Positions 11,264 to 32,151 of a DNA stretch of 64,000 bases are shown in pieces. This DNA comes from an uncultured Saprospiraceae bacterium (GTDB lineage Bacteria > Bacteroidota > Bacteroidia > Chitinophagales > Saprospiraceae). Position numbers and translations under genes: made by a program. Below the pieces are notes generated by a model. It had not been told where the DNA came from and did not search any database. It saw nothing but the letters and a program-made list of their open reading frames with translations. Each line of letters begins with the position of its first letter. Positions within the stretch are counted from its first letter, which is position 1. Where the stretch lies: assembly GCA_938022165.1 (NCBI GenBank), contig CALIEI010000044.1, positions 1 to 64,000 on the forward strand, in the 5' to 3' direction.

Positions 11264-13621
11264 TTATTGTGCTACTTGTACGATATCGTCTACTTTGTAT
11301 GCACCAGAATCTAATTTCGTCTTGATAGCGGTGAACGCCTCAAGTGTTGCATTGATGTCTTCTTCGTTATGACTAGCCGTAGGGATTAATCTCAATAGAA
11401 TCAATCCTTTCGGTATCACAGGATAAACAACAATGGAACAGAAAATTCTGTGTATTTCTCTTAGCTCATAAACCAATTGTGTAGCTTCTGGTACTGATCC
11501 GTGCATATAAACAGGTGTTACGCAACTGTTCGTATTTCCAAGATCAAAACCTCTTGAACGCAATCCATTTTGTAGCATGTTTACATTTTCCCAAAGCTTG
11601 TCTTTAAGTTCAGGCGTAGTTCTCAGCATATCCAAACGCTTAAGTGCACCTTCAACGATTGGCATTGGTAGAGACTTTGCAAAAATCTGAGAACGCATGT
11701 TGTACTTCAGGAATCTTACAACCTCAGGAGTACCTGCTAAGAAAGCACCTACACTCGCCATTGATTTTGCAAAAGTAGAGAAATAGATGTCTATATCATC
11801 TTGTACTCCCTGCTCAACACCCGCTCCTCGACCACCTTCACCAAGTGTACCAAAACCGTGCGCATCATCAACTAATAATCTAAATTGATATTTTGATTTT
11901 AATTCAATGATCTCTTTGAGAATTCCTTGTTCACCACGCATTCCAAAAACGCCTTCTGAAATAACTAGAATTGCACCACCAGTGCTTTGAACAATCTTTT
12001 CTGCACGCTTCAAACATCTGTCTACACTTTCTATGTCATTGTGCTCAAATGCAAAACGCTTACCCATATTCATACGTACTCCATCAATGATACATGCATG
12101 ACACCCTGCATCATAAACGATAACGTCTCTTCTGTCTGTAAGGCAATCAATAGCTGACATGATCCCCTGATAACCAAAGTTAACCAATACGGCTGCTGGT
12201 TTTCTTACAAATTCTGCAAGTTCGTTTTCAAGTTGATCATGCATGGCAGAATTACCAGACATCATTCTTGATCCCATTGGGTAAGCTAAGCCCCACTTTT
12301 TAGCTGCTTCAGCATCTGTCTTTCTGACTTCTGGGTGGTTACCTAGTCCTAGGTAATTATTTACACTCCATACAATAACCTCTTGGCCTCTAAATTGCAT
12401 ACGACTTCCTAGATCACCTTCAAGGTTAGGAAAAATGAAATAGCCTTCAGCCTGTTCAGCATACTGTCCTAATGGTCCTGGGTTGTTTTTGATTTTTTCA
12501 AATAAATCCATTCCTGATTGATTATGATTATTTAATTCTCGTGATCGAATCACTTTAAATTTTCCGTTATGGTTAGTCTTCCAAAGACTACCCGGTTTTC
12601 TTGCTAATATATCTTCTTGTGAATTTTGAATAACTTGTTCTGGTACTTGATTGTAGCCATATTCTATCATCCAAGACTCGTTGTATATTTTATCTAGATA
12701 TCTGCTTCCGTGGTCTGGGCAAACAACTACAACTACATCATCTTCAGTTAGCTCGTCTTTTATTTGGAGTAAAGCTTGAAAAGCAGCTCCACTTGAGTAA
12801 CCAATTAGAATGGCTTCTTTTTCTGCCAAAGATCTTGCTGCTAGTGCAGAGTCCTTGTCGTTAACTTTAACAAACCTGTCGATACCATCAAAATCTACAT
12901 TCTTAGGAATAATAGTTTTGCCAAGCCCTTCTATCTTATAAGGTTTTATTTGTGAGCTATCAAATTCCCCTGTCTTATGATAGTGCATCAATACTGAACC
13001 ATCAGCATCTACACCGACAACTTGTATTTCTGGGTTCTGTTCTTTTAGATATCTCGAAGTACCTGAAATGGTTCCTCCAGTACCTGCACATACAATAAGA
13101 TGTGTAACCTTACCTTTTGTGTCATTCCAAATTTCAGGACCAGTAGTTCTATAATGAGATTCAGAATTATCTAGGTTGAAATTTTGATTTACATAGTATG
13201 AATTCGGAATTTCAGCTGCTAATCTTTTTGCTCTAGAGTAATAAGACCTAGGATCATCTGGCTTTACTTTAGCAGGGCAAATGATAACATCAGCACCCAT
13301 AGACTTAAGCAAGTCAATCTTCGCATTCGAAGACTTATCTGTTATAGTTAACATACAACGATAGCCTTTGATCCGGCATGCCATTGCCAGAGATAAACCT
13401 GTGTTACCGGACGTAGCTTCTATGATAGTTGCACCCGGTTTGATCAAGCCTTGCTCCTCAGCAGATTGCAACATGTAACGAGCCACCCTGTCTTTTGCAG
13501 ATTGACCAGGATTGAAACATTCTAGCTTGCAATAAACAGTAGCCTTGCAATCACCTATGGCTTTGTTTATCCTCACCAATGGTGTATTACCAATAGTTTC
13601 AAGTATGTTGTTATATATCAT
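11264..13621 (-). CDS. Fusion: cysteine synthase/CBS-family PLP lyase (N) + AONS/KBL/SPT-like alpha-oxoamine synthase (C); candidate cysteate synthase-cysteate acyltransferase
   Basis: N: IGNTPLVRINKA, SAKDRVA, EATSGNTGLSLAMA, GTGGTISG; C: NNYLGLGNHPEV, GSRMMSGNSAMHDQLENELAEF, DDAHGFGTLGEGGRG, STFAKSMASVGAF; uninterrupted frame. Confidence 0.88.
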   Translation of the reverse strand: MIYNNILETIGNTPLVRINKAIGDCKATVYCKLECFNPGQSAKDRVARYMLQSAEEQGLIKPGATIIEATSGNTGLSLAMACRIKGYRCMLTITDKSSNAKIDLLKSMGADVIICPAKVKPDDPRSYYSRAKRLAAEIPNSYYVNQNFNLDNSESHYRTTGPEIWNDTKGKVTHLIVCAGTGGTISGTSRYLKEQNPEIQVVGVDADGSVLMHYHKTGEFDSSQIKPYKIEGLGKTIIPKNVDFDGIDRFVKVNDKDSALAARSLAEKEAILIGYSSGAAFQALLQIKDELTEDDVVVVVCPDHGSRYLDKIYNESWMIEYGYNQVPEQVIQNSQEDILARKPGSLWKTNHNGKFKVIRSRELNNHNQSGMDLFEKIKNNPGPLGQYAEQAEGYFIFPNLEGDLGSRMQFRGQEVIVWSVNNYLGLGNHPEVRKTDAEAAKKWGLAYPMGSRMMSGNSAMHDQLENELAEFVRKPAAVLVNFGYQGIMSAIDCLTDRRDVIVYDAGCHACIIDGVRMNMGKRFAFEHNDIESVDRCLKRAEKIVQSTGGAILVISEGVFGMRGEQGILKEIIELKSKYQFRLLVDDAHGFGTLGEGGRGAGVEQGVQDDIDIYFSTFAKSMASVGAFLAGTPEVVRFLKYNMRSQIFAKSLPMPIVEGALKRLDMLRTTPELKDKLWENVNMLQNGLRSRGFDLGNTNSCVTPVYMHGSVPEATQLVYELREIHRIFCSIVVYPVIPKGLILLRLIPTASHNEEDINATLEAFTAIKTKLDSGAYKVDDIVQVAQ

Positions 13622-17904: not shown

Positions 17905-18996
17905 TTGCTCGAAATACGTAAAATAATATCTGAATACGATAAGCTAGATCATAGCAAAGAAAAAGTTGCACTAGCCTCTGTCGTAAGTGTGGAAGCTTCG
18001 GCGTATAGAAGGATTGGCGCTCGAATGCTGGTTAGAAGTAATGGCCTCTGGACAGGTGGGATCAGTGGTGGTTGCCTCGAAGGAGATGCACTGAAGCAAT
18101 CCATGAATGCGATCTATAAAAACAAATCTTCGATCGTAGTGTATGACACGATGGATGATGACAAAAATCAAATCGGAGTAGGACTAGGATGCAATGGCAG
18201 AATAGAAGTACTACTCACACCCATAGACCCCAATGATCCAAACAATGAAATAGAACTACTGCGATCCATCTTGAACGCGCAAGAGCCCTCGATCATTGCA
18301 AAAGTAATTTCTGATGATGATGAGCGATTGGCTACTAGTAAGTTAATAAATCATCATGATACTGAATTGTCATTTTTGGACATAGACTCGGATGCACTAC
18401 AAGATGCGATACAAACGGTCTTGGCTAAAAAGTCTCCACGGATTTTTGACTTGCCGGCTGGAGAAAAAGAGATCAAGGTCTTACTCGAATTTGTGCGACC
18501 CGAAACCAGATTGGTGATCGTAGGAGACAACTACGATGTCAATGCCATGGCAAATATAGCGAGCACGCTAGGTTGGGAAATTTGGGTAGTAGGTAGATTG
18601 AAAAAACTAACCAAAGAACTTGTCGGAAAAGTGAAGCGCGTGATCCCCTTTGAGGAACATACCAAAGTAAAACCGCACGACTACACTGCTGTTATATTGA
18701 TGTCCCATGATTACAAATGGGATCTAGAAATCTTGCAACATTTCCTAGAGTACAAGCCTGCCTACATGGGCATGCTAGGACCAAAAAAACGTACCTTAAA
18801 AATGGATGCGGAATTAGAAGGTGTGAATTTAGAATCTATTGATTTTTTACACAGCCCCACAGGACTAGAAGTAGGCGCAGAATCTCCTGAAGAAATATCG
18901 CTGTCAATCGCCTCTGAAATACTGGCGGTCTTTAGACAAAAGGGCGGACAGCCATTGAGAAAAAAAGTAGGCCCAATACACGAAAGAGAAGTATGA
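17905..18996 (+). CDS. XdhC/CoxI-family molybdoenzyme maturation protein
   Basis: RMLVRSNGLWTGGISGGCLEGDAL; VIVGDNYDVNAMANIASTLGWEIWVV; SPTGLEVGAESPEEISLSIASEI; TTG start; overlaps moaA by 4 nt. Confidence 0.88.
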   Translation: MLEIRKIISEYDKLDHSKEKVALASVVSVEASAYRRIGARMLVRSNGLWTGGISGGCLEGDALKQSMNAIYKNKSSIVVYDTMDDDKNQIGVGLGCNGRIEVLLTPIDPNDPNNEIELLRSILNAQEPSIIAKVISDDDERLATSKLINHHDTELSFLDIDSDALQDAIQTVLAKKSPRIFDLPAGEKEIKVLLEFVRPETRLVIVGDNYDVNAMANIASTLGWEIWVVGRLKKLTKELVGKVKRVIPFEEHTKVKPHDYTAVILMSHDYKWDLEILQHFLEYKPAYMGMLGPKKRTLKMDAELEGVNLESIDFLHSPTGLEVGAESPEEISLSIASEILAVFRQKGGQPLRKKVGPIHEREV

Positions 18997-24049: not shown

Positions 24050-25024
24050 TTATGCCGGAATATACTTGGCTGGATCTTTTTCAAAACTCACTTTACAGCC
24101 ATCGCAGCAAAAGTAAACTTTCTCTCCTGCATGCTCAAGTACATGTTTTGCCGTACTTTTTTGAATTGGAATATTACAAACAGGATTCATATAATAATCA
24201 CCAGCTGGCATGGTAAGCTTCTCCGCTTGCGGCTTAGCTGTCTGTTCATTGTCTACTCTAAATTTTTTGATAATTTCTGCCAATATACTTATAGCTACTT
24301 CTTCTGGAAGTTCTGCGCCCAAGTTAAGCCCTGCCGGGCTTTTTATCTTTTTCAACTGATCAAAGGTGATCCCCATTCCACGCAAGTCAGTATAAATGGC
24401 TTGTGCCTTTATGGGGCTAGATACAAAAGCGAGGTATTGACTTTCCATACTGATCGCCTTATGCAAAGCCTCTAGATCTCCCTCTCCTTGCGTACATACT
24501 ATGGTATAGCAATTCCGATGATTTTCATTTATCTCGAAATCTTTTATGCCGTGTAATTTATCCGCAGTAGGGTATACATTTTTATCCACCACATTTTGCA
24601 CAACATCAACGCTGTAATCCATCGCCTTTGCTATTTTCGCTAAAGCCATTCCGATGTGCGAATTTCCAAAAATAACGAGTTGAGGTGTTGGCATAACTGG
24701 TTCAATATAGACTTCAACTTCTCCACCACTCTGGCAGGTCATGCTGTAAATCTTAGTGTTAGATAAATTATTTTTTTTCTGATCTTTTGTGATTAGCACT
24801 AATCTTGGCTTTCGATCCTTCATAGAAAGTAAGGCTTCTTTCAGCACAATACCTCTGGTACATCCTCCGCCAATCCATCCATGAATTTTTCCATCTGATG
24901 TAATAACTGCTTTATCTCCAGGCTTACCAGAAGATGGCGTTTTTCTACGCACAATCATGGCAGTAGCATAGGCCTCCGTGCTATTCCTTAAAGCCATTAT
25001 TTTATCTACAAATTCATTACGCAT
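24050..25024 (-). CDS. XdhC/CoxF-CoxI family protein with C-terminal YHS metal-binding domain
   Basis: MIVRRKTPSSGKPGDKAVITSDGKIHGWIGGGCTRGIVLKEA; IKSPAGLNLGAELPEEVAISILAEI; C-term YYMNPVCNIPIQKSTAKHVLEHAGEKVYFCCDGCKVSFEKDPAKYI. Confidence 0.88.
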   Translation of the reverse strand: MRNEFVDKIMALRNSTEAYATAMIVRRKTPSSGKPGDKAVITSDGKIHGWIGGGCTRGIVLKEALLSMKDRKPRLVLITKDQKKNNLSNTKIYSMTCQSGGEVEVYIEPVMPTPQLVIFGNSHIGMALAKIAKAMDYSVDVVQNVVDKNVYPTADKLHGIKDFEINENHRNCYTIVCTQGEGDLEALHKAISMESQYLAFVSSPIKAQAIYTDLRGMGITFDQLKKIKSPAGLNLGAELPEEVAISILAEIIKKFRVDNEQTAKPQAEKLTMPAGDYYMNPVCNIPIQKSTAKHVLEHAGEKVYFCCDGCKVSFEKDPAKYIPA

Positions 25025-26159
25025 CTAATAATATATTTTCAAGCTCAAGCAAGCTACTAAAATTGTGTGCTGATCCAAAATGATTTAATGAAGGTAATGC
25101 AGCTTGCATCCCAACCTGTATCGGCTCATAGCCTTGCATACCTTTCAATGGGTTGAGCCAAATTAATTTTTTGCTTCGCATCTTGATATGTTTCATAGCG
25201 GCATCCAATATTTCAGGCTTCCCTGTATCTAATCCATCACTCAAGACAATCGTTATGGTCTTTCCATTCAAGTATCTTTTGGAATAATTGTCATTAAAAT
25301 CAGTCAAACACTTTCCGATTTTTGTACCGCTTGACCAATGTTTAGCATGTCGAGAAACCATAGCCAAAGCACCCGCCATATTCTTATCTGATATATAGTC
25401 TGTAATTCTCAACAAACTGGTGCTAAATGTAAACACCTCTACTTCTTTAAAGTTGGATCTTAATGACCAAAGAAACTTCAGCAAATAAAAAGAATACTTA
25501 TCCATGGATCCACTCACATCTAATATCACCATTAAGCGATATTTATCCTTCTTTTTATTCTTTCGTGATAGTTTAATAATATTTCCTCCATTTTGGATAT
25601 TCAAGCGAATAGAGTTGGCAATGTCGATTTGTCCTTTGTTTGCCTTCTTTCTTCTTCTTTTGAGACGCTGACTCATTTCCTTGACTAACTTTTCAGACAG
25701 CTCATCTAAGGCATCAGATTGATTCTTTGTCAAATAAGCAAAATCAGTGCGCTTTAAAGTTTCTTTTGTATTAGCGCCTGTGGTGGTTTTTGCCTCTTCT
25801 CCTTCTTCTTCATTGGCATCTGAGTTACCCTTCCCCAACATGACAGCCGTACTCACTTTGTTGGTCTTTACAGAGGTTTGGTTCTTATTCGTTCTTTTGT
25901 CTTGAATGACTGTACCTTTTTGCTTCCAAAATTGATTATACATTTTTTTGAAAGCTACACGCTCTTCTGCTTCATGACAAAACAAACTCGTAAGTGCATA
26001 TTCAAAGAGTGCTTTATCTGGCCATAGGCCAAATAAAGCACTTTCGAATGTATCTTTAGTACATTGAATTCCTGAATGAAAACCATTTAATCTAGCTTTT
26101 TGAGCAAAGCCTATAAAGGCTTCTGAAAAACTAGAAAATTGAGTGTAATGTTGACTCAT
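25017..26159 (-). CDS. coxE: VWA domain protein, CoxE-like CO dehydrogenase maturation factor
   Basis: MIDAS motif LMVILDVSGSMDKYSFYLLKFLWSL; position next to MoxR ATPase in cox cluster. Confidence 0.88.
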   Translation of the reverse strand: MSQHYTQFSSFSEAFIGFAQKARLNGFHSGIQCTKDTFESALFGLWPDKALFEYALTSLFCHEAEERVAFKKMYNQFWKQKGTVIQDKRTNKNQTSVKTNKVSTAVMLGKGNSDANEEEGEEAKTTTGANTKETLKRTDFAYLTKNQSDALDELSEKLVKEMSQRLKRRRKKANKGQIDIANSIRLNIQNGGNIIKLSRKNKKKDKYRLMVILDVSGSMDKYSFYLLKFLWSLRSNFKEVEVFTFSTSLLRITDYISDKNMAGALAMVSRHAKHWSSGTKIGKCLTDFNDNYSKRYLNGKTITIVLSDGLDTGKPEILDAAMKHIKMRSKKLIWLNPLKGMQGYEPIQVGMQAALPSLNHFGSAHNFSSLLELENILLDA

Positions 26160-26396: not shown

Positions 26397-27248
26397 TTAA
26401 TCACTGGTGAAAAATTCATTTTTTACAGCCTGGATATCATGGTTTGATTTCAACAAACAAGACAAACTATTATACATCGCGGCGTCATCATTGTCTAGCG
26501 CTGCGATACCTTTTGCCCAATCTATTGTCTCTGCTATTCCAGGCGTTTTATCTAATTTTAAAGTTCGCACTTTTTCCACAAAGTCTGCAATTTTATTTGC
26601 CAATTGCGACTCAATATTGGGAATATGCTTCTTTATAATCTTTAGTTCTTTTTCTGCAGATGGATAATCAACCCAATGATACAAACATCTCCGCTTCAAA
26701 GCATCACTCAACTCTCTTGTTCTATTGGATGTCAATACCACTATAGGTTTTTGCTTTGCCGATATAGTACCCAATTCTGGAACGCTAATTTGAAAATCAG
26801 AAAGCAACTCCAACAAAAAAGCTTCAAACTCTTCATCTGCCCTGTCGATTTCATCGATAAGCAAAATCATTCGTTTATTATTAGTAATGGCTCTTAGCAA
26901 AGGTCTTTTCAAAAGGTACTCTTCCCCAAAAATCATTTCTTCCTTTTCTCTATCCGACTTGTTGCTACTTTCAGAAATCTTTATCGCCAACAATTGTTTT
27001 TGATAATTCCACTCGTAAATGGCGTTATTTACATCAAGCCCTTCATAGCATTGCAACCTAATCAACTCATAGCCCAGGTACTCAGATAAAATATGTGCAA
27101 TCTTTGTTTTACCTACCCCAGGGTTACCTTCTAATAACAAAGGCTTTTCGAGCTTCATCATCAGATATAAAACTGTTGCCAACTCCTCTTCAACTACATA
27201 CCCTAAATTATCAATAATAGGGATAAGCTCCCTAGGGTTATCTACCAT
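26397..27248 (-). CDS. coxD: MoxR-type AAA+ ATPase, CoxD-like
   Basis: Walker A EGNPGVGKTKIA, Walker B ILLIDEIDRADEEFEAFLLELL, VLTSNRTRELSDALKRRCLYHWVDYP. Confidence 0.92.
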   Translation of the reverse strand: MVDNPRELIPIIDNLGYVVEEELATVLYLMMKLEKPLLLEGNPGVGKTKIAHILSEYLGYELIRLQCYEGLDVNNAIYEWNYQKQLLAIKISESSNKSDREKEEMIFGEEYLLKRPLLRAITNNKRMILLIDEIDRADEEFEAFLLELLSDFQISVPELGTISAKQKPIVVLTSNRTRELSDALKRRCLYHWVDYPSAEKELKIIKKHIPNIESQLANKIADFVEKVRTLKLDKTPGIAETIDWAKGIAALDNDDAAMYNSLSCLLKSNHDIQAVKNEFFTSD

Positions 27249-27252
27249 CTAT

Positions 27253-27780
27253 CTATTTCTTACGTCCGAAAATACTTTTAGCAACAGTACCCAACATTGA
27301 ACCAGCATTCATTGTATTATCTACTGATCCACCTGCGAGTTTTGCTCTGAAATTTTCTACGAACTGATCTAAGAGCTGATCTGAAACATCATTAATCAAC
27401 CTAGAACCAAATTGTGCAAGCATTCCAATAATGGTAATATCCATAGAGAATTTTACTTTGGTTTTGCCATCTTCTTCAGTCAAGGTACCATTCATAATCA
27501 TATCAGCTGATCCCTTACCTTTGCTATCTAAGCCACGGCCCTTTAAAACCATTTTTCGATTTTCTTCGTCCAATTCAACGATCTCAATATCACCTGCATA
27601 AGCAGCCTTGATTGGGCCAAACTTGGTGACTACTTCTCCTTTATAGTTTTTATCGTCTATTTTCTCGGTGATTGAAGCACCAGGTACACAAACAACAATC
27701 TCAGCAGGGTCAGCTAAGTTTTTCCACACTTCGGCTATTGGTTGCTCAATTTCAAACTCCTTAACTATTTGAGTATTCAT
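27253..27780 (-). CDS. coxG: CoxG-type SRPBCC protein
   Basis: EFEIEQPIAEVWKNLADPAEIVVCVPGASITEKIDDKNYKGEVVTKFGPI; start at MNTQIV (27780) preferred over track start. Confidence 0.92.
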   Translation of the reverse strand: MNTQIVKEFEIEQPIAEVWKNLADPAEIVVCVPGASITEKIDDKNYKGEVVTKFGPIKAAYAGDIEIVELDEENRKMVLKGRGLDSKGKGSADMIMNGTLTEEDGKTKVKFSMDITIIGMLAQFGSRLINDVSDQLLDQFVENFRAKLAGGSVDNTMNAGSMLGTVAKSIFGRKK

Positions 27781-27798
27781 AAATTCTAATATTAAAGT

Positions 27799-27825
27799 AA
27801 GCACCACAAGTAATTTGTGGTGCTT
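27799..27825. other. Intercistronic hairpin between coxL and coxG
   Basis: AAGCACCACAA-gtaat-TTGTGGTGCTT, perfect 11-bp stem. Confidence 0.85.
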
Positions 27826-27859: not shown

Positions 27860-30241
27860 CTAGGCATTGTTGTCAAAATACCCCACCTTCTGTAGCTCTT
27901 TAAACAACTTAAATGGTGTAACAGGTATTTCCAAATGCTTTATTCCTAAGTGAGAAACAGCATCAACGATTGCATTTACGATTGCTGGTGGCGCCCCTAC
28001 TGTTGGTGATTCACCTACTCCTTTCGCTCCTATCGGATGATGAGGTGCAGGGGTTATAGTATGACCCGTTTCCCAACTTGGAGACTCTACTGCAGTAGGC
28101 ACTAGATAGTCCATAAACGTACCGTTAAGAATATTACCAGATTCATCATAAATTAGTTCCTCATACATCGCAGGTGCAATACCTTGCGTCAAGCCACCAT
28201 GTACTTGTCCTTGTACGATCATAGGATTTATGATATTACCACAATCATCAATGGCAACAAATCTTCTAACCTTGATATCACACGTTTCAGCATCTACTTC
28301 CGCTACACAGATATAAGCACCTGAAGGGAAAGTTAAGTTTGGAGGATCGTAGTAATGCGTTGCTTCAAATCCACCCTCCATTCCTTCTGGGTGGTTGGTA
28401 TAAGCAGCAAAAACAATTTCTTGAATCGTCTTTGACTTCTCAGGCGCTCCCTTTACAAAGAACTTGCCTGGCTCCCATTCTAGATCTTGCTCAGAAACTT
28501 CCATCAAATGCGCTGCAATTTTCTTGGCTTTATCTCTCAACTTACGAGCAGCCATAGCCGCAGCTGCACCAGCTGTAGGTGTACTTCTACTCGCATAAGT
28601 TCCTAATCCATAAGGTGCAGTATCCGTATCTCCTTCTTCTATCTGGATATTCTCCATGGGTATACCCAACTCTTCAGCAATGATTTGAGCATAAGTCGTT
28701 TCGTGACCTTGCCCTTGAGACTTAGTACCGAATCTTGCGATTGCCTTTCCAGTTGGATGCACTCTGATTTCAGCACTATCAAACATTTTTATTCCTAGTA
28801 TATCAAAATCCTTTGACGGACCTGCTCCTACTACTTCAGTAAAAGTTGAGATACCAATTCCTAAAAACTTTTTACCCTCTTTTCTCATTTCGATTTGTTC
28901 TTTTCTCAAATCGTCATAACCGATCGCATCCATCGCTTTTTGCAAACCAGCATGATAATCACCACTATCATATGACCAGCCCGTAGGTGACGCCCAAGGG
29001 AAATCTTCCTTCTTAATGAAATTCTCCATTCTTAGTTGCGCTGGATCTTTACCTACTTTCTTAGCAAACATATCCGTTACACGCTCTATAGCATGCACTG
29101 CTTCTGTTACTCTAAAAGAGCAACGATACGCTACCCCACCTGGAGGCTTATTGGTATATACTGCATCAGCTTCCATGTAAGAAGCTCCATAATCATAAGA
29201 TCCTGTCCCTATCGAAAATAATCCTGTAGGGAACTTAGAAGGATTTGCAGAAGCATCTGTATATCCATGATCAGCTAATACTTTAAAACGAGTAGCCTGT
29301 ATTTTTCCATCTTTGGTTCCAGCCATTTCAGCTGTGATGTGATAGTCACGAGCAAATGAATCTGCTTGCAAGTTTTCACTTCGATCTTCGATCCACTTAA
29401 TAGGTGCTCCAGTCAAAAAGGAGACCGCTATGGCTATAACATATCCTGGATATACTGGTACTTTACCACCAAATCCTCCTCCAATATCTGGAGAAATAAC
29501 CCTAATCTTTTCTTCTGTCAATCCTACGTGACCAGCTACTAAGGCGATGACCGTTCTGATGGCGTGTGGTGCCTGAGTAGTCATATACATCGTAAGATGA
29601 TTTTCTACTTTGTTGTATGAAGCAACACAACCACATGTCTCTATAGAAGCAACGTGTATTCGAGGTATATGCATCTGCTGCTTGACCACAACATCGGCAT
29701 TATCGAATACAGAATCCGTCTTTTCCTTATCCCCTACTTCCCAGTGCCAAATATGATTATCCGTCTTTCCTTCTTGGTCTACTCTTAACACAGGTGCTTC
29801 TTCATCTAGTGCTTTGAACGGATCCATAAGGGGCTTCATTGGCTCATATTCTACCCTAACGGCTTCCTTACCATCTCTAGCAATATATCTACTAGTAGCT
29901 ATTACAGCAGCTACTTCTTGTGCTTGATACATTACCGTATCTGTAGGCAATACCATCTGCGTATCGGACATCAAAGTTGGCATCCAGTGTAGGCCATACT
30001 TCTCCAAATCTTTTCCCGTGACTACAGCTACTACACCTTCTATCTCTAATGCTTTGCTAGCATCAATATTTTTAATTTTTGCATAGGCATATGGAGATCT
30101 TACGATATCCATATATAGCATACCTGGCAATTTTACATCATCTACATAATTTCCTTTTCCTTGGATAAATCGAGCATCTTCCTTTCTTTTTTTGGAGTGC
30201 CCCATCCCTCCTATTTCTTTGGATGTTTTACATTTTATCAT
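27860..30241 (-). CDS. coxL: Aerobic carbon-monoxide dehydrogenase large subunit, form I
   Basis: Molybdopterin-binding XDH-family large subunit; active-site motif VAYRCSFRVTEA (codons 29111-29131) matches form-I AYxCSFR; GGFGGK, GAKGVGESPTVGAPPAIVNAI. Confidence 0.95.
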   Translation of the reverse strand: MIKCKTSKEIGGMGHSKKRKEDARFIQGKGNYVDDVKLPGMLYMDIVRSPYAYAKIKNIDASKALEIEGVVAVVTGKDLEKYGLHWMPTLMSDTQMVLPTDTVMYQAQEVAAVIATSRYIARDGKEAVRVEYEPMKPLMDPFKALDEEAPVLRVDQEGKTDNHIWHWEVGDKEKTDSVFDNADVVVKQQMHIPRIHVASIETCGCVASYNKVENHLTMYMTTQAPHAIRTVIALVAGHVGLTEEKIRVISPDIGGGFGGKVPVYPGYVIAIAVSFLTGAPIKWIEDRSENLQADSFARDYHITAEMAGTKDGKIQATRFKVLADHGYTDASANPSKFPTGLFSIGTGSYDYGASYMEADAVYTNKPPGGVAYRCSFRVTEAVHAIERVTDMFAKKVGKDPAQLRMENFIKKEDFPWASPTGWSYDSGDYHAGLQKAMDAIGYDDLRKEQIEMRKEGKKFLGIGISTFTEVVGAGPSKDFDILGIKMFDSAEIRVHPTGKAIARFGTKSQGQGHETTYAQIIAEELGIPMENIQIEEGDTDTAPYGLGTYASRSTPTAGAAAAMAARKLRDKAKKIAAHLMEVSEQDLEWEPGKFFVKGAPEKSKTIQEIVFAAYTNHPEGMEGGFEATHYYDPPNLTFPSGAYICVAEVDAETCDIKVRRFVAIDDCGNIINPMIVQGQVHGGLTQGIAPAMYEELIYDESGNILNGTFMDYLVPTAVESPSWETGHTITPAPHHPIGAKGVGESPTVGAPPAIVNAIVDAVSHLGIKHLEIPVTPFKLFKELQKVGYFDNNA

Positions 30242-30270: not shown

Positions 30271-30774
30271 TTAGACAAACTTCGGCTCAGTGGAAGGAAG
30301 TTCTTTGCCCTGCATCTTTGCAGAAGTCCATTGAATAGCGGAAACAATATTGTTGTAACCTGTACAGCGACATAAGTTGCCCGCAATCCCCCATCTAATT
30401 TCATCTTCAGTTGGGTTCGGATTTTTTTCTAATAATTCTATTGCTCTCATCATCATTCCTGGTGTACAGAATCCGCAATGTAATGCATGATTTAAGTGAA
30501 AGCCTTCTTGTATTGGATGTAAGCCCTCAGCAGTAGCCAATCCTTCTACAGTTGCTATTTCTTTACCATCAGCCTGCACTGCCAACACAGTACATGATTT
30601 TGCTGACTTGCCATCTATTAATATTGTGCATGCTCCACATGAAGAAGTATCGCATCCAATATGCGTACCCGTTAGAGATGCATTTTCTCTTATTGCATGA
30701 ACCAATAACATACGAGGCTCTACTTCCATCGTATGCTCGGCACCATTTATTTTTAAAGTTATTTTCTTTGTCAT
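30271..30774 (-). CDS. coxS: Aerobic CO dehydrogenase small [2Fe-2S] subunit
   Basis: [22 protein letters not shown] and [13 protein letters not shown]...[12 protein letters not shown]. Confidence 0.95.
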
Positions 30775-30781
30775 GATAATA

Positions 30782-31648
30782 TTATTTTGCTCTTGAAATC
30801 GCCTTATTCAGCATACGTTTTGTAATTATTTTCACTAAGTGTCTTTTATATTCTACATTTCCTCTTAGATCTTCTGATGGATTACAGTCCTCTGAAGCAA
30901 ACAATGCAGCTTGATTGATCACAGATTCTGAAAGATCACTACCTATCAGTACTTCTTCCGAACGAGCTGCGCGCATCGGGATACTATTCACATTGGTCAA
31001 TCCGATACCTGCTCTGGTGCACTTACCATCTTCGTCGATCTGAACCATTGCAGCAACACCAGCTGTAGCATAGTCTCCTACCTTTCGCTCTGCCTTATGA
31101 TAAGCCGATCCAAATCTTCCGCTAGCAGCAGGAATTTGAATTTCAGTCAACACTTCTCCATGCTGTACAGAAGTTGTATAAAACCCATGAAAGAAATCAT
31201 CTATAGGAACGGTACGCTTGCCATCCTTGCCTGTGATTTCTACAGACGCCCCTAAAGCAAACATTACCGCTGGATGATCATTAGCCGCATCACCATGCGC
31301 TAGATTGCCTCCTAGTGTACCAAAGTTTCTCACTTGCGGATCCGCTATAAGCTTTGTAGCATCTGTGAATAAATGATACTTACTTTTTATAATTTCAGAA
31401 TCCTCCACTTCCACTTCTTTTGTCATTGCCCCAATTTTGAGCATACCTCCCTCTTCCTTTACATAGGAAAGACCTGGAATATTATTGATGTCGATTAAAT
31501 GCGTTGGTGCAGCAAAACGCAATTTCATCATTGGAATAAGACTATGCCCTCCGGCAAGAATTTTTGCCTCATCACCATACTCATGCAATAAAGAAATCGC
31601 TTCCTCTAATGTAGATGGGGCCTCGTAATTAAAATTTTCTGCAATCAT
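30782..31648 (-). CDS. coxM: Aerobic CO dehydrogenase medium FAD subunit
   Basis: FAD motifs [13 protein letters not shown] and [22 protein letters not shown]. Confidence 0.95.
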
Positions 31649-31653
31649 ATTAT

Positions 31654-32151
31654 TTAGTTAAATTTTGAATGAATTGGACTATATCTGTGTTTAAAGAATT
31701 TATTATAAAAGTATCCGAAACTACCATTGAACCATATACCAAAAAACAAGGTTACACTCGCCAGATAATACAAGGATTCTGAAAGGTAGATGAATTGACT
31801 TATCGTTAGTAATAATATACCCACGGAAGAAATCGAGGCAGCAATCCATGTTCTCAGTCCCTTTCCGTTTAGAAAAATACCTAGCAATACCATTAATGAC
31901 AGCAATACTATGATGTACCCTGAATAAGCATCTGCATTTGGAAAGTATTTACTGCCAGTGCACATAGAAACGGCACCAGAATAAGCCATAACACAAAAAG
32001 GGCATTTAGGAAGCAGAGCAATGAGGATGGCAGGCATCCAAGAAAAATTATATTTCTTTGATTTTTTACACTTTTTACAAGGTAATGAATATTCTGCCTG
32101 GGTTGGGTTTTTCAATGTTTGCTTTTGGTATTTTACAATGGTATCCAACAA
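31654..32151 (-). CDS. Small Cys-containing multi-TM membrane protein (MerC-like?)
   Basis: CKKCKKSKKY and PKCPFCVMAYSGAVSMC cysteine motifs followed by several hydrophobic segments; 5 nt upstream of coxM; TTG start uncertain. Confidence 0.65.
   Translation of the reverse strand: MLDTIVKYQKQTLKNPTQAEYSLPCKKCKKSKKYNFSWMPAILIALLPKCPFCVMAYSGAVSMCTGSKYFPNADAYSGYIIVLLSLMVLLGIFLNGKGLRTWIAASISSVGILLLTISQFIYLSESLYYLASVTLFFGIWFNGSFGYFYNKFFKHRYSPIHSKFN

Follow-up and report, generated by a model that had tools for sequence, protein, structure and literature searches.

A C-terminal YHS domain on CoxF, a maturation protein of form-I CO dehydrogenase, and its candidate role in copper insertion

RESULTS

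A form-I cox cluster in an uncultured Saprospiraceae bacterium

The window analysed here is a stretch of 64,000 nucleotides (contig CALIEI010000044.1, assembly GCA_938022165.1) from an uncultured Saprospiraceae bacterium of the Bacteroidota. It carries a cox cluster with the gene order coxM-coxS-coxL-coxG-coxD-coxE-coxF (Table 1), flanked by molybdenum cofactor genes (moaA, moeA, mobA, moaC, moaE and one of thiF/moeB type). CoxL is the large subunit of an aerobic CO dehydrogenase (CODH), as judged by a TIGR02416 score of 1209 bits against a cut-off of 991 and by the form-I motif AYRCSFR. The CO dehydrogenase setting proposed in the initial annotation is thus correct, form-I coxMSL and coxDEG being encoded beside coxF.

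In Bacteroidota, as in the window, the cox operon opens with a gene for a small Cys-rich membrane protein. Thirteen other form-I loci of Bacteroidota contain homologues, and the PKCPFC motif is invariant. In a scan with the MerC family (PF03203), 6 of 11 aligned members matched weakly (best 1.4e-4), the window protein itself giving no match. We speculate that this protein may import metal (copper) for the Cu-S-Mo centre. Elsewhere in the window, a 785-aa ORF (11264-13621, minus strand) joins, judged by eye, a cysteine-synthase-like part to a serine palmitoyltransferase/2-amino-3-ketobutyrate ligase-like part.

Table 1. Features of the cox region and of the CoxF protein in the window
Feature	Position	Strand	Basis
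Second XdhC, CoxI-type, no YHS	17905..18996	+	Pfam and whole-genome searches
coxF, 324 aa, maturation protein of the XdhC family ending in a YHS domain	24050..25024	-	Translation, Pfam, tree
XdhC core, aa 1-262	24239..25024	-	Pfam
Linker joining the core to YHS, aa 263-276, least confident part of the model	24197..24238	-	AlphaFold pLDDT
YHS domain, aa 277-324	24053..24196	-	PF04945, ligand conservation, model pLDDT about 90-95
Cys55	24860-24862	-	Invariant in 32 CoxF proteins
Cys97	24734-24736	-	Invariant in 32 CoxF proteins
Asn280, putative ligand	24185-24187	-
Cys283, putative ligand	24176-24178	-
Cys306, putative ligand	24107-24109	-
Cys310, putative ligand	24095-24097	-
coxE (VWA_CoxE)	25017..26159	-	Pfam
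coxD (MoxR-type AAA+ ATPase)	26397..27248	-	Pfam and further profile scan
coxG (COXG/SRPBCC)	27253..27807	-	Pfam
coxL, form I	27860..30241	-	TIGR02416 above cut-off, AYRCSFR at 29111-29131
coxS (2Fe-2S subunit)	30271..30774	-	ORF list; homologues alongside in other clusters
coxM (FAD subunit)	30782..31648	-	ORF list; homologues alongside in other clusters
Small membrane protein rich in Cys (PKCPFC), weakly MerC-like, opens the cox operon	31654..32151	-	Homologues in form-I loci, PF03203 matches

CoxF of the window ends in a YHS domain

The coxF product matches three Pfam families: XdhC_CoxI (PF02625) at aa 13-76 (E 4.7e-14), XdhC_C (PF13478) at aa 116-251 (E 3.6e-25) and YHS (PF04945) at aa 280-323 (E 2.7e-10; 40.5 bits against a curated cut-off of 30.3). 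The C-terminal YHS domain that had first been read from the end of the translation is therefore confirmed. In the AlphaFold model this domain is confidently predicted, and pLDDT drops to 64 in the linker block 261-270; among 120 homologues the linker measures 14 to 73 aa (median 27). Searches of the whole genome returned one YHS and two XdhC, with both domains together only in CoxF. The other XdhC paralog indeed lacks YHS, as initially annotated. A frameshift or a chance fusion could be ruled out, because the same architecture recurs in related Saprospiraceae (L045-L050) and in many phyla.

CoxF proteins were compared with their paralogs in a quick tree of 121 sequences (CoxF cores and paralogs), from which the tails were left out. 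They form one clade (SH-aLRT 100), except for one long-branch paralog placed within it. The window protein lies inside this clade with CoxF of O. carboxidovorans, apart from the CoxI-type paralogs (SH-aLRT 100). According to a review, CoxF clusters with the XdhC proteins encoded in other CODH operons (PMC2997495). CoxF of O. carboxidovorans OM5, encoded on pHCG3, shares 36% identity with the window protein over the XdhC core and also follows coxD-coxE in a form-I cluster, but has 280 aa and no tail, neither YHS nor HMA. XdhC of xanthine dehydrogenase and CoxI share the XdhC_CoxI and XdhC_C domains of CoxF, but have no C-terminal metal domain and occupy a separate branch.

Cys97 of the window protein aligns with the cysteine of the M107CPSHGTM motif of O. 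carboxidovorans and does not vary among CoxF proteins, whether or not they carry YHS. The idea that this cysteine is a Cu site peculiar to O. carboxidovorans CoxF was therefore rejected.

The XdhC-YHS fusion is essentially specific to form-I clusters

In 40 form-I genomes, 34 of 109 XdhC proteins carried YHS. Thirty-three genomes were positive, 32 of them with a single fusion and one (G268) with two.

Where possible, the association with form I was surveyed independently of coxL. For Actinomycetota (199 evenly drawn genomes), YHS was searched first, and 60 regions were read in which the YHS match lay in an open frame of about 270-700 aa. This yielded 31 distinct XdhC-YHS fusions, all CoxF-type, against 218 XdhC in all. 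A form-I-type coxL, called by AYRCSFR or AYACSFR where the motif lay inside the stretch and otherwise by position and score, adjoins all 29 fusions with a readable neighbour; the other two lie at contig ends. Two loci (L166, L179) contain both form-I and form-II coxL, and in both the YHS-bearing CoxF is the immediate neighbour of the form-I gene.

In Chloroflexota (251 genomes), matches to a CoxF-YHS profile fell into two separate sets, 50 reaching into YHS at E <1e-87 and the others stopping before it at E >1e-58, a few split or partial fusions departing from this separation. Of the 50 full fusions, 49 adjoin coxL, its assignment to form I resting on score and position in 29 cases because only the last 1.5 kb was read; the remaining one lies next to coxE on a contig of 4 kb. 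Six additional split or partial fusions adjoin form-I coxL (four) or lie at contig ends (two). Most Chloroflexota CoxF-YHS loci (L221-L250, L281-L305) read coxL-coxF(-coxG), with no coxD or coxE in the stretch read, unlike those of YHS-less Pseudomonadota CoxF, which coxD and coxE adjoin.

Over all coxL-independent searches, 83 of 88 fusions have form-I-type coxL as a neighbour, one has only coxE and four lie at contig ends. In none of the 88 was the neighbour solely a form-II or xanthine dehydrogenase gene. Profile-based surveys could overlook a YHS-bearing XdhC that has diverged; of the surveys, that of Actinomycetota is the least biased. The comparison of form-I with form-II and xanthine dehydrogenase loci suggested in the initial annotation thus shows that the fusions are not equally common in the two settings, since they are essentially specific to form-I CODH clusters.

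YHS is widespread on CoxF and missing mainly in Pseudomonadota

As the CoxF core alignment contained no conserved stretches for scanning, form-I coxL served as genome anchor for a wider sample. Because coxL had served to choose these loci, they could not show independently whether fusions occur next to it, and only the reverse question was put to them. In this GTDB-wide sample of 80 form-I coxL loci, CoxF was readable in 70 and carried YHS in 63, which represent at least 13 bacterial and archaeal phyla. The seven exceptions are all from Pseudomonadota, the phylum to which O. carboxidovorans belongs: four are tail-less (Bradyrhizobium and a relative) and three have a short CCGG tail only. YHS was never seen on CoxI-type paralogs in the same loci. 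CoxF-YHS is also encoded on annotated plasmids of Deinococcus, Thermomicrobium, Paraburkholderia and Natronorubrum, and on an unannotated Caballeronia plasmid.

When 349 Pseudomonadota genomes were searched with the CoxF-YHS profile, YHS was found on one of about 20 CoxF, beside form-I coxL. The remaining CoxF lack it and are placed after coxD-coxE and, where read, form-I coxL. Compensation by a stand-alone YHS or HMA gene found no support, as none was seen within about 10 kb on either side of YHS-less CoxF.

Several other arrangements were encountered. Two CoxF carry tandem YHS domains (L072:12425-13606, L079:12440-13606). SAR324 form-I loci contain a second XdhC with a duplicated XdhC Rossmann domain (L095:7400-8755, L100:15610-16980). 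One contig (L108, CAMDVX010000085.1) with form-I cox genes, from a MAG labelled Bifidobacterium breve, is probably mis-binned.

An HMA copper domain replaces YHS in one lineage

Among 298 genomes of the window's phylum, YHS was found on the window CoxF only. In five genomes of this phylum (G184, G003, G008, G050, G058), CoxF carries an HMA copper domain with a GMSCAHC or AMSCAHC motif at the position where YHS sits elsewhere, and these proteins are the closest to the window CoxF among the other genomes of the sampled phylum. All five lie inside complete form-I clusters, beside form-I coxL. The two tails scanned match PF00403 (E 2.9e-10 and 5.8e-10). This is the domain type of CopZ and CopA, here fused to CoxF, where the window protein carries YHS instead; consistently, the best solved relatives of the G184 tail are copper-transporting ATPases and CopZ.

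On the tree, tail state changed four times: HMA arose once (support 95), the tail-less proteobacterial state once (77, weak) and the CCGG state twice. YHS is frequent in both branches of the deepest split and is therefore most simply ancestral and later lost or replaced, a direction of change suggested by this quick tree. SCCGG-like double-Cys motifs were also noticed in the linkers of some YHS-bearing CoxF (L060, L076, L084, L106, L038), and as the sole tail, at the C-terminus, of some gamma- and betaproteobacterial CoxF without YHS (L107, L112, L116).

The putative metal site of the YHS domain is conserved

The putative ligands in the window protein are Asn280, Cys283, Cys306 and Cys310, with an extra Cys307, in the pattern D/N-x2-C-x22-C-x3-C. 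Across 120 YHS tails, the first position is D in 99 and N in 20 (119/120 together), and the three cysteines are kept in 117, 117 and 120, respectively. A further Cys directly follows the second ligand Cys in 78 tails. An altered YHS, with the first Cys lost and an FSC/FTCxxC motif, was observed in Deinococcus, Meiothermus and one MAG contig (L034:8001-9062, L094:13056-14186, L108:5966-6958); in Deinococcus and Meiothermus the second Cys is shifted.

The spacing is identical to that of D178/C181/C204/C208 in the YHS domain of the Mycobacterium phlei adenylyl cyclase, which is also C-terminal and on a linker, and for which Cu was the sole activating metal among those tested (PMC4626032). The M. 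phlei domain differs in being a sensor on a cyclase and in having Asp as first ligand, where the window protein has Asn. By analogy with it, the window YHS is predicted to bind copper. The nearest solved sequences to the window domain are phenol hydroxylases, so that a YHS domain alone is no proof of copper. A Foldseek search with the YHS model gave no match below E 0.001, and fold comparison therefore adds little.

DISCUSSION

Form-I CODH consumes CO, atmospheric CO included, and is unusual among molybdoenzymes in its Cu-S-Mo centre.

In O. carboxidovorans, coxF is required genetically for insertion of Cu but not for that of Mo or gross sulfur. CODH from the coxF::km mutant contained 0.043 Cu, 1.85 Mo and 1.40 S per enzyme, against 1.47, 1.73 and 1.53 in the wild type under the same growth (PMC4240915). 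CoxF had already been proposed in 2014 as Cu supplier, through the M107CPSHGTM motif and a suspected phytase activity (PMC4240915). The opening premise that Cu delivery is poorly defined was thus only partly right, that earlier proposal coming from a YHS-less protein.

Taken together, these results suggest that in most phyla form-I CoxF is a maturation factor with its own tethered YHS copper-cargo domain, acting in the Cu step and not in sulfuration, a reading to which we give a probability of roughly two in three. The XdhC core would dock on folded, already sulfurated apo-CODH, and the YHS domain on its flexible linker would hold one Cu(I) through the three conserved Cys (plus Asp/Asn) and release it to the Mo-SH site, giving the Cu-S-Mo centre. 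The handoff could perhaps be relayed by the conserved Cys97. In one lineage the CopZ-type HMA domain would have taken the place of YHS, and in alpha- and most gammaproteobacteria the domain would have been lost and Cu obtained otherwise. The function first put forward, a YHS domain serving Cu and coupled to CoxF-dependent sulfuration, therefore survives in its copper half, indirectly, through the form-I specificity, the HMA swap and the Cu-less coxF mutants (PMC4240915). The coupling to sulfuration is unsupported, because the mutant enzyme keeps nearly stoichiometric cyanolysable sulfur (PMC4240915) and sulfuration is assigned to CoxD.

Three observations count against the copper-cargo reading: CoxF of O. 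carboxidovorans inserts Cu though it has no YHS, YHS occurs in Cu-free enzymes, and the tails of Deinococcus and Meiothermus are degenerate. Since alphaproteobacteria insert Cu without the domain, YHS would aid delivery rather than be indispensable; the domain is either helpful but not strictly necessary, or substituted in this group by something not seen. The other two observations would also fit a module with a structural or docking role, with Zn or no metal bound, which would help CoxF to contact form-I CODH or CoxD/CoxE and carry no copper. The solved YHS-like segments of bacterial multicomponent monooxygenases are small structural domains, that of toluene-4-hydroxylase being metal-free (PMC4626032), and the degenerate YHS retains the sequence pattern but not all ligands. 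Nevertheless, such a module hardly explains the swap, at the same position, for an unrelated HMA fold whose relatives carry Cu(I), nor the retention of ligand residues in more than 97% of tails, and we consider it unlikely.

The M. phlei cyclase raises another alternative, a copper sensor by which CoxF would be turned on or off, with no cargo site, as this best studied YHS is a Cu-responsive switch in a similar C-terminal placement (PMC4626032). HMA domains, however, are usually cargo domains, and nothing marks CoxF as an enzyme to be switched, which makes a sensor rather improbable. That the YHS cysteines carry persulfide sulfur for sulfuration of Mo is more doubtful still: the XdhC family does mature sulfurated molybdoenzymes (PMC2997495) and a large share of the sulfur in the CODH of the coxF mutant was unable to accept Cu (PMC4240915), but that enzyme lacks Cu and not cyanolysable sulfur, XdhC of Cu-free enzymes never carried YHS in these surveys, and HMA is not a sulfurtransferase domain.

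The copper-cargo reading can be extended, tentatively, to a wider picture that we regard as possible but not probable. CoxF would act as a copper metallochaperone directed at the active site, whose covalently tethered cargo domains (YHS, HMA, possibly CCGG tails) can be exchanged for one another. This design would be ancestral in form-I CODH and have disappeared from the only group in which the system was studied, and in Bacteroidota CoxF would be fed by a dedicated MerC-like importer encoded by the first cox-operon gene.

The need of CoxF for Cu insertion was known before; the YHS or HMA tail appears to be new, as a search of the open literature, with most subscription papers outside its scope, returned no account of XdhC with YHS, YHS with CODH or CoxF with HMA. 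The route of Cu to the Cu-S-Mo centre has rested on one alphaproteobacterium, in the CoxF of which no metal domain is recognised. A domain that is specific to form I, occurs in nearly all other phyla and has been exchanged in nature for one of copper-chaperone type points to a candidate Cu donor with its ligands, and clean deletion and swap experiments become possible. It also suggests that the model organism would show a reduced version of the system.
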